From contig CAJQPY010000010.1 in the NCBI GenBank assembly GCA_905480335.1, forward strand, positions 62,001 to 126,000: 64,000 bases of DNA, written 5' to 3'. Positions 3,599 to 32,880 of this stretch are shown piece by piece (position 1 is the first letter of the stretch; each line of letters begins with the position of its first letter). The DNA comes from an uncultured Ilumatobacter sp. GTDB taxonomy: Bacteria > Actinomycetota > Acidimicrobiia > Acidimicrobiales > Ilumatobacteraceae. Made by a program: the position numbers and the translations under genes. Below the pieces are notes generated by a model. The model saw nothing but the letters and a program-made list of their open reading frames with translations. It was not told the DNA's origin and ran no database searches.

Positions 3599-4660
3599 AT
3601 GGCTGCGCCGCTACTATCACGACCCGTGCGAGTCGGGATCCTCACCGGTGGCGGCGACTGTCCCGGGCTTAACGCAGTCATCCGCGCTGCGGTTCGAAAA
3701 GGTGAACGCGTTTACGGCGACGAGATGATCGGGTTCCTCGATGCTTGGGATGGGGTGCGTGATCGGCGGACGACACCGCTCTCGATTGATTCGATGCGTG
3801 GAATGTTGCCGCGTGGAGGCACGGTGCTGGGCACCCGGCGAGGGAGCCCGTTCGACACGCCTGACGGTGTTGATCACGTGAAGCAGACCATAAGTGACCT
3901 TGGGCTCGACGGGCTGATCGTGATCGGCGGCAACGGCAGCCTGTCGATCGCATGCCGTTTGCACAGTGAACACGGGCTCCCGATTCTCGGCGTTCCGAAG
4001 ACGATCGACAATGACATCGAGGGAACCGACCTCACATTTGGTTTCACCACGGCAGTGCAAATCGCAACGGATGCGATCGACCGCCTGCACACCACGGCCG
4101 AGAGCCACGATCGGGTCATGTTGGTCGAGGTCATGGGCCGGCACACCGGGTGGATCGCAACGCATGCAGGAATTGCCGGCGGCGCAACGGCGGTGCTGAT
4201 TCCCGAGATTCCCTTCGACGTCGAGGAATTGTGTGGTCGACTGATCCGCCGCCACGACAGGGGACGGTTTGCCTCGATCGTCGTCGTCGCCGAAGGAGCC
4301 GAACCGATTGCCGGCACCCTCGAGATGGGCGAAAAAATTTACGACCGCTTCGGCCATGTCGTTCTCGGAGGAATTGCGACCCGAGTCGCCCACGCAATCG
4401 GTGATCGCACCGGATTCGAAACGCGAGTGGTCCAACTCGGTCACGTGCAGCGCGGGGGCACACCAACAGCGTTCGACCGCGTGCTCTCCACACGCTTCGG
4501 TGTCGCAGCGATTGATGCTGTCCACGACGAGCAGTGGGGCAAGATGACCGTGCTTAAGGGTGAACAGATCGAGCTTGAGGACCTCACTGTCGCAGTCGGG
4601 CAGACCCGCACCGTCGACCGTGAGCTATTCGATGGCGTTGCGGCGCACTTCTTCGCGTGA
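3599..4660 (+). CDS. pfkA: 6-phosphofructokinase (PfkA family)
   Basis: GILTGGGDCPGLNAVIRA, IGGNGSLSIA, GVPKTIDNDIEGTD, VMGRHTGWIA, GHVQRGG; ATG at 3599 chosen over the longer ORF. Confidence 0.9.
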   Translation: MAAPLLSRPVRVGILTGGGDCPGLNAVIRAAVRKGERVYGDEMIGFLDAWDGVRDRRTTPLSIDSMRGMLPRGGTVLGTRRGSPFDTPDGVDHVKQTISDLGLDGLIVIGGNGSLSIACRLHSEHGLPILGVPKTIDNDIEGTDLTFGFTTAVQIATDAIDRLHTTAESHDRVMLVEVMGRHTGWIATHAGIAGGATAVLIPEIPFDVEELCGRLIRRHDRGRFASIVVVAEGAEPIAGTLEMGEKIYDRFGHVVLGGIATRVAHAIGDRTGFETRVVQLGHVQRGGTPTAFDRVLSTRFGVAAIDAVHDEQWGKMTVLKGEQIELEDLTVAVGQTRTVDRELFDGVAAHFFA

Positions 4661-27763: not shown

Positions 27764-29088
27764 TGCGAGCTCTTGTATACGGTTTGGGCGTTGCTGGAGG
27801 GTCCACGGCTCGAGCTATGCAACGGCGCGGCTGGGACGTGATAGCAGGTGATGACTTCGTCACCGAGGGACGCTCATCGCTGGCGACGGAGCTCGGCATC
27901 GAACTTCTCGATGCGCCTGACCTCAAGACCTTACGCCTGGTACTAGAGGGTTGTGACGTCCTCTGCCCAGCTCCCGGCATCCCTGAGCATCATCGGGTGA
28001 TCGATGCGGCTCAAGCAACCAGAACCGAGATCGTCTCGGAGATTGAGCTCGCCTATCGCTGGGAGCAGGAGCGACCCGGTGGTCCGCGACCGATGCTCGC
28101 CGTGACCGGAACCGACGGCAAGACTACGACGACGCTGATGGCTGTGGCGATGCTGCGCGCCGCTGGGCTGTCGACCGTCGATGCGGGGAATACCGAGACT
28201 CCGCTCGTTGATGCCATCGACGAACCTCACGACGCCTTTGTCGTTGAGTGCACGAGCTTTCGACTGGCATGGACGCGTGACTTTCGTGCCGAGGCGGCTG
28301 TATGGCTCAATTTAGCCCCAGACCATCTCAACTGGCATGCCTCGATGGACACATACGAAATTGCAAAGGCAAGGATCTGGGCAGCGCAGCACGATGACGA
28401 CACTGCCATTGCGTTCACCGGTGCGCCCAACGTAATGCGACGTCTCCAAGAGGCTCCTGGCCGTCGAGTGACCTTTGGTCGGGGCGGTGACTACTGCCTC
28501 GACGAAACTCGACTAGTTGGGCCGTGTGGGACAATCACTACGACCGACGCGATGCGTCGAAGCCTGCCGCATGATATTACGAATGCGCTTGCGGCTTCGG
28601 CGATGGTGCTCGAAGCGGGCCTCGCAGACACCTGCGCTATCGAACAGGCGCTTGCCAATTTCAGTGGCCCCGCGCACCGACTGGAGCACCTCGGCACGCA
28701 TGCCGGCGTCGACTGGTACAACGATTCGAAGGCGACAACTCCGCATGCTGCTGCGGTTGCGGTCCGGGCCTTCGACGAGATTGTCCTGATCGCCGGAGGA
28801 AAGGATAAACACGTGGATCTCGCCGAAATGGCCGTCGAGCTAGAGCGACTCCGTGCCGTTATCGCGATCGGCGAAACGCGTGCGGACGTTGCCGGTGTTT
28901 TCGCCGGCGTCGACGTTGTGGAGACCACTGAATTCCTTCCTGCAGCCGTTGCTCGTGCCGCCGAGATCGCTGTGCCTGGCACCACGGTGCTGCTGTCGCC
29001 CGGATGCGCCAGCCTCGACCAGTACCACTCGTTCGAAGACCGCGGCGATCACTTCCGCGAACTCGCACACCAGCAAGGAGTCCGTTGA
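27763..29088 (+). CDS. murD: UDP-MurNAc-L-alanine:D-glutamate ligase MurD
   Basis: AVTGTDGKTTTTLM, NLAPDHLNWH, HRLEHLG, WYNDSKATTPHA, LIAGGKDK. Confidence 0.93.
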   Translation: MRALVYGLGVAGGSTARAMQRRGWDVIAGDDFVTEGRSSLATELGIELLDAPDLKTLRLVLEGCDVLCPAPGIPEHHRVIDAAQATRTEIVSEIELAYRWEQERPGGPRPMLAVTGTDGKTTTTLMAVAMLRAAGLSTVDAGNTETPLVDAIDEPHDAFVVECTSFRLAWTRDFRAEAAVWLNLAPDHLNWHASMDTYEIAKARIWAAQHDDDTAIAFTGAPNVMRRLQEAPGRRVTFGRGGDYCLDETRLVGPCGTITTTDAMRRSLPHDITNALAASAMVLEAGLADTCAIEQALANFSGPAHRLEHLGTHAGVDWYNDSKATTPHAAAVAVRAFDEIVLIAGGKDKHVDLAEMAVELERLRAVIAIGETRADVAGVFAGVDVVETTEFLPAAVARAAEIAVPGTTVLLSPGCASLDQYHSFEDRGDHFRELAHQQGVR

Positions 29089-30356
29089 TGGCATCCACTG
29101 TCTCTGTCCACGATCGGCGCCAAGCAGCGCTATCTCGGCTAGGTCACGAGGCGTCCCCGCAGCGCCGGACGCGCTCTCCCCGCGTCCGGCCGAAGTCACC
29201 GGGTGCCCGCTCTCCGCGCGAATCGTTGGGCGCTCCCGCAGGCGTCTGGTACGGAATCATTGCGGTGGTGATCGTTTTTGTCATGCTCGGACTCGTGATG
29301 GTGCTCTCCGCGTCGGCGGTCACCGAGGCGAATCGCGGCAACTCTCCGTACAGCGTTTTTCTCCGTCAGGCCATGTGGGCTGGGTTCGGACTTGTCGGCA
29401 TGGTCATCATGGCAAGGATTCCCTACGGACTCTGGAGGCGGATGACGGTGCCGTTGGTTGTGGTCGGTGTCGCCGCAATGCTCGGACCGTTCGTCCCGAT
29501 GATCGGCGGAAGTGTCAACGGCGCCCGAGCCTGGATCCGCTTCGGTGGGTTTAGCGTTCAGCCTTCCGAGTTCCTCAAACTCGCAGTGGTCATCGCAACC
29601 GCCGACCTGCTGACGAGGCAGGCCGGTGCGATGAACCATCGACGCCGCACGCTCATTCCGCTCGCGTTACTCGCCGGGGTTGGGGCGGGGCTGTGCATGT
29701 TGCAGGGTGACCTCGGTTCAGCGGTCGTGCTCGGGGCCGTCGTGTTCTCCATCGGTTGGATCGCCGGCGTGCCGTTCACGCCGCTAGCCGTTATGGCGTC
29801 GGGCGCCACTGCCGCAGGCCTTTTCTTCATCGTGTCGAGTCAGACCAGGATCGACCGCTTCACGGCGTTTATGGACGTCACTGGCAATAAAGATCGTCTT
29901 GCCTGGCAGACCTACCAGGGCTTCGTCGGCATGGCCTCGGGTGGAATCGGCGGTTCTGGGATCGGTGGCAGCAAGACTAAGCTCGGCTATCTCCCGTACG
30001 CTCACAGCGACTTTATTTTTGCAATAATCGCCGATGAGTTGGGTCTGGTCGGTGCCGGAGCGGTAATCGGCGGGTTCATCTTGCTGGTCCTGTTCGGTGT
30101 GCAGACGGCGCTGGCTTCGACCGACCGCTTTGGCATGCTTGTGGCCGGTGGAGTCTCCTCCTGGTTCGGGGTGCAGGCCATCGTCAATCTGGGTGGTGTC
30201 ACCGGGCTGATGCCGGTCACCGGACTCACGCTGCCGTTCTTCTCGGCCGGCGGAAGTTCACTGTTCGTGTCGATGGTCGCAGTTGGGTTGCTCCTCAGTG
30301 TCGCCCGGCGAGTCGGAAGTCGGAGCGAGCCCGAGATCCGGCGGGCCGCATCCTGA
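29088..30356 (+). CDS. ftsW: FtsW/SEDS-family peptidoglycan polymerase
   Basis: Multi-TM, GARAWIRFGGFSVQPSEFLKLA, GLMPVTGLTLPFFSAGGSSL. Confidence 0.94.
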   Translation: MASTVSVHDRRQAALSRLGHEASPQRRTRSPRVRPKSPGARSPRESLGAPAGVWYGIIAVVIVFVMLGLVMVLSASAVTEANRGNSPYSVFLRQAMWAGFGLVGMVIMARIPYGLWRRMTVPLVVVGVAAMLGPFVPMIGGSVNGARAWIRFGGFSVQPSEFLKLAVVIATADLLTRQAGAMNHRRRTLIPLALLAGVGAGLCMLQGDLGSAVVLGAVVFSIGWIAGVPFTPLAVMASGATAAGLFFIVSSQTRIDRFTAFMDVTGNKDRLAWQTYQGFVGMASGGIGGSGIGGSKTKLGYLPYAHSDFIFAIIADELGLVGAGAVIGGFILLVLFGVQTALASTDRFGMLVAGGVSSWFGVQAIVNLGGVTGLMPVTGLTLPFFSAGGSSLFVSMVAVGLLLSVARRVGSRSEPEIRRAAS

Positions 30357-31477
30357 GCACGTTCGCTGTTGTCACCGGTGGCGGAACGGCGGGCCATGTT
30401 CTTCCCGCACTTGCTGTCGCGGGTGCTCTGGCTGCTGCGGGGCATGAGGCTGACTCGATCCACTATGTCGGATGTATGCGCGGGATTGAGACGAGGCTGC
30501 TTCCGGAGACCCTGTATCCGCACACGTTCTTCGATGTTGTCGGTTTCCAACGGTCGTTGAGCCGCCGCAACCTGGCCTTCGCGCCAAAAATGTGGCGCGC
30601 CCGCAGTGAGGCGGTCGCTCTCTTGCGTCGTCTTGATCCCAACGTCGTGGTGACGGTCGGGGGGTACGCAAGCATGCCGGCAGTCCTCGCCGCCCGGAAG
30701 CTGGGGGTTCCCATTGTTGTCGTCTCCTACGACTTCGTCCCGGGACGTGCCAGTCAATTCGCGGCCCGTTCGGCCGCAGCATGTGCGGTGGCGTTCGAGA
30801 ACTCGCCGCTTCCGAAAGCAACGGTTACCGGCGCGCCAGTACGTCAGGCGATCCTGGCGCTCGATCGCGTCGGTGACCGGGCGGCGGCCCGACGTCGACT
30901 CGGGGTTCCCGACGATCGATTCCTGGTTGCGGTGATGGGCGGATCGCTGGGGTCAGGAGTTCTCAACGCAGCGATTGCGCGCTACGCAAACGCTCACCGA
31001 GACGATGACGGGTTGGCGATCCGTCAGGTCGCCGGCGAACGGTTCATCGACGAGGTTGCCGTCGTCGATTCGTCCGGGTCGACCGGGCTTTTTCACCAAA
31101 TCGTGGGTTATGAGGACAACATGGCGTCGATCTACGCCGCCGCTGATCTCCTTATCGGGCGCGGCGGAGCAAGCACCGTCCATGAGGTGGCCGTAACTGG
31201 AATCCCGGCCATTCTCATTCCTTGGACGGGTGCGGCCGACGATCATCAGACCGAGAACGTGCGTTGGTTAACCGACGCCGACGGTGCGGAGCTGATGACC
31301 GAGACGGCTCTCGCCGCTGATCCGTCTCATCTCGATGAAGCTATCGAACGCCTCCGCAACGATGTCGAGGCCCGCGAGCGGCTGTCGAGAGCTGCTCGTC
31401 GCCGCGGCGAGGTCCATCGATCGGGTGCCATGGCCTCGCTGGTCGAACGTGTCGCCCTAGCATCGACGGCGAGATGA
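30353..31477 (+). CDS. murG: UDP-GlcNAc transferase MurG (probable CTG start)
   Basis: TFAVVTGGGTAGHVLPALAVAGAL conserved N-terminus lies upstream of the first ATG in frame (30476); only plausible initiator is CTG at 30353 overlapping ftsW stop. Confidence 0.88.
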   Translation: MSTFAVVTGGGTAGHVLPALAVAGALAAAGHEADSIHYVGCMRGIETRLLPETLYPHTFFDVVGFQRSLSRRNLAFAPKMWRARSEAVALLRRLDPNVVVTVGGYASMPAVLAARKLGVPIVVVSYDFVPGRASQFAARSAAACAVAFENSPLPKATVTGAPVRQAILALDRVGDRAAARRRLGVPDDRFLVAVMGGSLGSGVLNAAIARYANAHRDDDGLAIRQVAGERFIDEVAVVDSSGSTGLFHQIVGYEDNMASIYAAADLLIGRGGASTVHEVAVTGIPAILIPWTGAADDHQTENVRWLTDADGAELMTETALAADPSHLDEAIERLRNDVEARERLSRAARRRGEVHRSGAMASLVERVALASTAR

Positions 31478-32880
31478 CCGAACAGCTTTCCGTTCCCGTG
31501 GTTCCGCTCGATCTGTCGATCCCGCACCGGCTGCATATCGTTGGTGTAGGCGGTCCGGGCATGAGCGCGATTGCGATCGCGCTCGCCGAAATGGGCCATG
31601 AGGTGTCCGGGAGTGACCTTCGTGAACATCCGGTCCTCGAACGCGTTCGTGCTGCCAACGTGGAAGTGACGATCGGGCACGATCGCAGCCTCGTCCACGG
31701 TGTCGACGCGGTCACTGCCTCGACTGCCATTCCGGAGGAGAACATCGAACTGAGGGAGGCGCGCTCGACAGATGTCGCCGTGCTGCGCCGTGCTGCGATG
31801 CTCGGCTCAATCTGCGACCAGGCGAAGGCACTCGCAGTTGCTGGGACCCACGGCAAGACTACGACAACGTCGATGCTGATGCTGATGCTTGCTGATGCTG
31901 GGCTCCGTCCGAGTTTCATCATTGGTGGTGACGTGAGCGACCTCGGTACCGGAGCACAGTGGACAGGCGGGGAGTTTCTGGTCGTCGAAGCAGACGAGAG
32001 TGACGGAACCCACCTCGAACTCCCGCTCTACGGGACCATTGTTACAAACATCGAAGTTGATCATCTCGATCATTACGGGTCGTTCGAAGCAATTGTCGAG
32101 AGCTTCGACAGCTACCTGCGACAGGTTCCGGGTCCAAAGGTGGTGTGCGGCGACGACGAGGTGGCTTGCCAGTTGGCTGCAGCCCATGATGCAATTACGT
32201 ACGGTCGAGGCGAGGGCGTCGATGTCCGCGCAGTCGATGTTCGTGCCGCCAATGGAGCGTTCGTGTTTGATGTTGAGCGCAACGGTGCAACGGTCGGCAC
32301 GATCGAGTTGCCGATGCGCGGTATCCACAACGTTGTGAACGCAACTGGCGCAATTGCTTTGGCGCTTGAGGTCGGTGTCGAGTTTGAACACATCCGCATT
32401 GCGCTCGCGAAGTTTGGAGGTGTTGCGCGACGTTTCGACGTCCGTGGAATCGATGGCGGAGCGACGTTCGTCGACGACTACGCCCATCTGCCGTCCGAAA
32501 TCTCTGCGGTGCTTGCAGCGACCCGCCACAGCGGGGAGAACTGGCGACGAGTTGTCGCGATCTTTCAACCAAACCGCTACAACCGGATTGCCGAAATCTG
32601 GCAGGAGTACGGGACTGCGTTCGGAGACGCAGACCTCGTCGTCCTGACCGAGATCTACGGTTCGGGCACCACTCCCATTCCCGGAGTCACCGGCAAGCTC
32701 ATCGTTAATGCAGTCACCGAGGCCGATCCGAAAAAGCGCGTCGTGTGGCTTCCGCGTCGGTACGACTTGGTCGACTTTGTGGCGCGCGAGGCGCGTGACG
32801 GCGACATCGTGGTCTCGATGGGCTGTGGTGACATCGCAACGCTCCCGTCGGAGGTGCTCAATGCCCGTCGCCGCGCCTGA
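31474..32880 (+). CDS. murC: UDP-MurNAc-L-alanine ligase MurC
   Basis: HIVGVGGPGMSAIA, AVAGTHGKTTTTSML, DEYAH-type motif VDDYAHLPSEI, FQPNRYNR. Confidence 0.95.
   Translation: MTEQLSVPVVPLDLSIPHRLHIVGVGGPGMSAIAIALAEMGHEVSGSDLREHPVLERVRAANVEVTIGHDRSLVHGVDAVTASTAIPEENIELREARSTDVAVLRRAAMLGSICDQAKALAVAGTHGKTTTTSMLMLMLADAGLRPSFIIGGDVSDLGTGAQWTGGEFLVVEADESDGTHLELPLYGTIVTNIEVDHLDHYGSFEAIVESFDSYLRQVPGPKVVCGDDEVACQLAAAHDAITYGRGEGVDVRAVDVRAANGAFVFDVERNGATVGTIELPMRGIHNVVNATGAIALALEVGVEFEHIRIALAKFGGVARRFDVRGIDGGATFVDDYAHLPSEISAVLAATRHSGENWRRVVAIFQPNRYNRIAEIWQEYGTAFGDADLVVLTEIYGSGTTPIPGVTGKLIVNAVTEADPKKRVVWLPRRYDLVDFVAREARDGDIVVSMGCGDIATLPSEVLNARRRA

Follow-up and report, generated by a model that had tools for sequence, protein, structure and literature searches.

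The NTGA overlap of −4 nt is the commonest spacing of neighbouring bacterial genes and is associated with translational coupling (PMC12548453). Coupling at overlaps is influenced by Shine-Dalgarno sequences (PMC6728339), and the compensation of suboptimal starts by stronger Shine-Dalgarno sequences is a known trend (PMC5622118). CUG makes up 0.024% of bacterial starts and its yield in E. coli is 0.86% of that of AUG, which counts against initiation at CTG (PMC11497404). The same can be said of a reporter selection in M. smegmatis, which failed to enrich CTG even when a consensus Shine-Dalgarno preceded it (PMC4633059). A switch from GUG to CUG has been reconstructed before in an analysis of 36 genome triplets, where it affected one of 5,080 ancestral GUG starts (PMC5622118).

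The ftsW-murG junction studied here lies in a stretch of 64,000 nucleotides from an uncultured Ilumatobacter sp., which was analysed as a whole and is hereafter called the window. It has the −4 nt geometry of NTGA coupled pairs, also present elsewhere in the cluster of the window, except that the N is C and not the usual A, G or T. As in the rare bacterial CUG starts already described, the codon is an NTG with a first-position mismatch and a switch from GUG is the likely origin, but murG is single-copy and normally essential, and the CTG is common to two species whose silent sites have diverged strongly. The ordinary ftsW-murG junctions of the family share the gene order and often the overlap (GTGA in the relatives G009 and G002, ATGA in several others), whereas their start is ATG, GTG or TTG in all those read, CTG being confined to the window genome and Ilumatobacter nonamiensis. 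The CTG start of murG, very probably real as judged from the sequences compared below, is a new conserved example of an already known rarity. The features concerned, by coordinates in the window, are as follows.

29088..30356, forward strand: ftsW, 422 aa, its ATG overlapping the murD stop as TGATG and its end reading GCA TCC TGA (Pfam FTSW_RODA_SPOVE, 8.4e-90)
30035..30037, forward strand: in-frame TGA that closes the murG frame upstream, inside ftsW, 106 codons before the CTG
30340..30345, forward strand: weak GGCGGG resembling a Shine-Dalgarno, 7 nt upstream of the CTG (anti-Shine-Dalgarno duplex −5.2 kcal/mol)
30353..30355, forward strand: proposed murG start codon CTG, the one start candidate common to the species compared; I. 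nonamiensis has the identical codon, G009 and G007 have GTG there
30353..31477, forward strand: murG, 374 aa when read from the CTG, present once in the genome, with Pfam GT28 N- and C-terminal domains, PDB MurG matches and one TIGR01133 match
30354..30356, forward strand: ftsW stop TGA, overlapping murG as CTGA, with the same CTGA in I. nonamiensis (locus L038)
30476..30478, forward strand: ATG, first in-frame canonical start, rejected for murG (the GGGTAGH loop would be lost and the Met is not conserved)

The gene murG is a normally essential cell-wall gene, whose product is the undecaprenyl-PP-MurNAc-pentapeptide GlcNAc transferase (GT28). The protein of the window contains the GT28 N- and C-terminal domains (PF03033, 4e-27; PF04101, 5e-28) together with the G-rich loop, and it matched the MurG sequences 7d1i (4.2e-38), 3s2u and 1f0k of the PDB. 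Its TIGR01133 score (220.3 bits, E 2.9e-65) was below the curated NCBIfam cut-off of 250.25 bits, which is a scoring threshold and not a biological feature. The assignment stands because the gene occurs once, lies between ftsW and murC, and is backed by its Pfam and PDB matches. A second murG copy was rejected, with only one TIGR01133 match in the genome (2.95 Mb, 94% complete).

The junction of the window reads ...CGGCGGGCCGCATC CTG AGC ACG TTC GCT... The murG frame is open from 30038, and ATG, GTG and TTG are absent from 30038 to 30475, a stretch that includes the 105 codons upstream of the CTG. We thus recovered on the sequence what the original prediction had stated, namely that the frame has no canonical start before ATG 30476 and that CTG 30353 overlaps the ftsW TGA as CTGA. 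The missing upstream canonical start is by itself unsurprising, since 36% of synonymous ftsW shuffles had none in the murG frame. The further claim that a start at ATG 30476 would delete the glycine-rich loop also held, the 41 residues removed including GGGTAGH. With this ATG the Glyco_transf_28 match went from profile position 2 and 95.4 bits (CTG start) to position 36 and 54.3 bits, and the N-terminal Pfam domain was complete only with the CTG start. This is also a practical problem, as gene finders restricted to ATG, GTG and TTG would cut these residues off MurG here.

In I. nonamiensis YM16-303, the closest sequenced relative of the window genome (G008, loci L003 and L038; NZ_BAOL01000105.1, a separate assembly), the same CTGAGCACGTTC lies over the ftsW TGA, so that the −4 nt start/stop overlap is present in both CTG species. 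An in-frame stop precedes the CTG of I. nonamiensis by 24 codons, and the 23 codons between them contain no ATG, GTG or TTG. The two MurG proteins were 76% identical, the fourfold-degenerate sites were 41% identical in murG and 44% in ftsW, and the FtsW tails failed to align (EPEIRRAAS in the window, ...SRRRTP in I. nonamiensis). The low identity at fourfold sites and the unalignable tails indicate that the two species do not share the CTG simply through recent common sequence, and the retention in I. nonamiensis of a CTGA junction lacking a canonical alternative is, on these alignments, beyond chance. A pattern search for the CTG junction retrieved two of the 11 genomes of the genus, exactly the window genome and I. 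nonamiensis. The C of the CTG is at the same time the third base of a fourfold ftsW codon (TCC in the window, CCC in I. nonamiensis); FtsW coding does not force this C, because a silent change of TCC to TCG or of CCC to CCG would restore GTG.

About 64 genomes from the family and the order were read for murG, and a canonical start (ATG, GTG or TTG) was present near the conserved N-terminal motif in all of the approximately 62 besides the two with CTG. At the codon itself, G009 has GTG AGC ACC with a GTGA overlap (GTGAGCACC) and G007 has GTG TCG ACG (GTGTCGACG), and relatives conserve the MurG residues that follow directly on the CTG. The alignment of the junction, with CTGA conserved in I. nonamiensis and GTG at this codon in G007 and G009, gives good support to the predicted start of murG at CTG. 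The window genome and I. nonamiensis were sisters in the MurG tree (support 99/97). The codon distribution most likely corresponds to a single change from GTG to CTG in the common ancestor of the two species, kept since, although the placement of G007 and G009 is unsettled. In the draft genome G003, we observed three distinct murG-like matches, each on its own contig (L007, L060, L061), perhaps due to mixed strains or contamination.

The original prediction had left room for a sequencing or assembly error at 30353, the true base being G or A and the junction an ordinary GTGA or ATGA. The GTG at the murG start codon of other near relatives would fit such an error, and artefacts or pseudogenes do occur in this assembly, where an apparent frameshift was seen at a CCCCC run elsewhere, but the identical sequence in the independent assembly NZ_BAOL01000105.1 strongly contradicts it. 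A shortened MurG, made from ATG 30476 or another downstream codon, would agree with the choice of a gene finder restricted to the three canonical codons, for which this ATG is the first available; it would lack the GGGTAGH loop together with some 34 positions of the N-terminal GT28 domain (about a quarter of the profile), and it would leave the conservation of the residues right after the CTG unaccounted for. Moreover, the Met is not conserved, CMRGIE in the window corresponding to CTRGIE in I. nonamiensis and CERGIE in G007. Given the comparison with I. nonamiensis and the canonical starts near the N-terminus elsewhere, both the base error and the truncated MurG are very unlikely.

Given that murG lies in the −1 frame of ftsW and that this frame stays open far upstream, one could also imagine that a −1 frameshift shortly ahead of the ftsW stop yields an FtsW-MurG fusion, with the CTG as a plain leucine codon. 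By inspection, the bases leading up to the ftsW stop of the window (CCGCATCCTGAG) contain no slippery heptamer, and we saw none of the usual form at the junction of I. nonamiensis; the lack of conservation of the FtsW tails and the ordinary starts at the same codon in relatives also argue against such a fusion, which we consider highly improbable. Initiation at ATC 30350, one codon ahead of the CTG, has in its favour that actinobacteria can use start codons mismatched at the third base, ATT having been enriched in the M. smegmatis selection and CTG not (PMC4633059). However, I. nonamiensis has CCC at that codon, with no ATA, ATC or ATT in frame near the junction, so that ATC 30350 cannot explain both species and is an improbable start.

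The reading that we favour, with a probability of about 0.87, is that murG would be initiated with fMet at CTG 30353 by termination-reinitiation on the ftsW TGA, the codon being derived from an ancestral GTG. The ribosome terminating FtsW, or its 30S subunit, would sit over the CTG and re-initiate one base back, held by a Shine-Dalgarno that is weak in the window (GGCGGG) and strong in I. nonamiensis (GGAGG). The change from GTG to CTG was most likely tolerated since MurG would be made by ribosomes that have just finished with FtsW; we infer that such tight coupling is what makes a poor codon acceptable at this position. The anti-Shine-Dalgarno duplex energy was −9.5 kcal/mol for the GGAGG of I. 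nonamiensis and about 0 to −3 kcal/mol in many relatives, the starts of the distant ones being picked by a crude rule, and this GGAGG is among the strongest Shine-Dalgarno sequences seen at the ftsW-murG junction. A special RNA structure at the junction was not detected, the folds being no more stable than those of shuffled sequences in the window (z −0.6), I. nonamiensis (−0.3) and G007 (−0.5).

The original prediction had further suggested that the rare codon could limit MurG supply relative to FtsW, an idea for which no specific support emerged. Selection of the CTG as such a throttle, by which MurG would be kept scarce, would be an addition to initiation at CTG, and not an alternative to it. 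In its favour, CUG initiates very poorly in E. coli (PMC11497404), and the silent change that would restore GTG was found in neither CTG species. On the other hand, the strong Shine-Dalgarno beside the CTG in I. nonamiensis resembles compensation, and retention in two species only is no proof of selection; we hold the throttle to be unlikely. A broader proposal would be that termination-reinitiation loosens the choice of start codon so far that an essential actinobacterial gene can persist on CTG throughout a clade, in a phylum where the only reporter selection retrieved did not enrich CTG, the codon perhaps being selected for the FtsW:MurG ratio; it is tentative and rather unlikely as a whole. 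Among natural CTG starts, that of murG is comparatively well supported; the gene is present once and is normally essential, and its likely ancestral GTG can still be seen in relatives. The ftsW-murG pair therefore lends itself to a clean test of whether ribosomes that re-initiate are less exacting about the start codon than those starting afresh.

The original prediction had likened the 4-bp overlap to the GTGA/ATGA junctions in the rest of the cluster. This geometry is present at murE/mraY (GTGA), murG/murC (ATGA) and murB/ftsQ (ATGA); murD/ftsW reads TTGATG and mraY/murD reads GTGATG. A CTGA at murC/murB was rejected as a second CTG start, being out of the murB frame; murB has ATG 32861. The overlap of this ATG with the end of murC is of about 20 nt (window 32861-32880).

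To survey CTG use in the genome, the window and about 0.85 Mb from other contigs were compared with 400 kb of G007, yielding about 147 non-overlapping ortholog alignments. Reading of these alignments revealed no credible CTG start other than that of murG. A CAG-anticodon initiator tRNA was likewise rejected: among the 30 of 35 tRNA loci read, in this 94% complete genome, the only initiator found was an ordinary CAU one carrying the GGG/CCC stem, and the tRNA with a CAG anticodon was one for leucine. With murG as the sole credible case and an ordinary initiator tRNA, this looks like one unusual gene and not a changed initiation system. A literature search on CTG starts in actinobacteria and on Ilumatobacter start codons retrieved nothing specific.

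One further CTG candidate of the ortholog survey was discarded as a broken ParA-like gene. This ATPase gene (L089 on G000:C8, minus strand, around locus position 4635) is split over two frames at a CCCCC run, with the KGGVGKTT part in one frame and the rest in another, and is intact in G007 (L134); the split is either a homopolymer assembly error or a pseudogene. Among the tRNAs, ARAGORN called a tRNA-Pyl (CTA) at L154:1501-1574 (G000:C33), which is most likely an ordinary tRNA-Arg, since its 7-nt anticodon loop CTTCTAA reads TCT.
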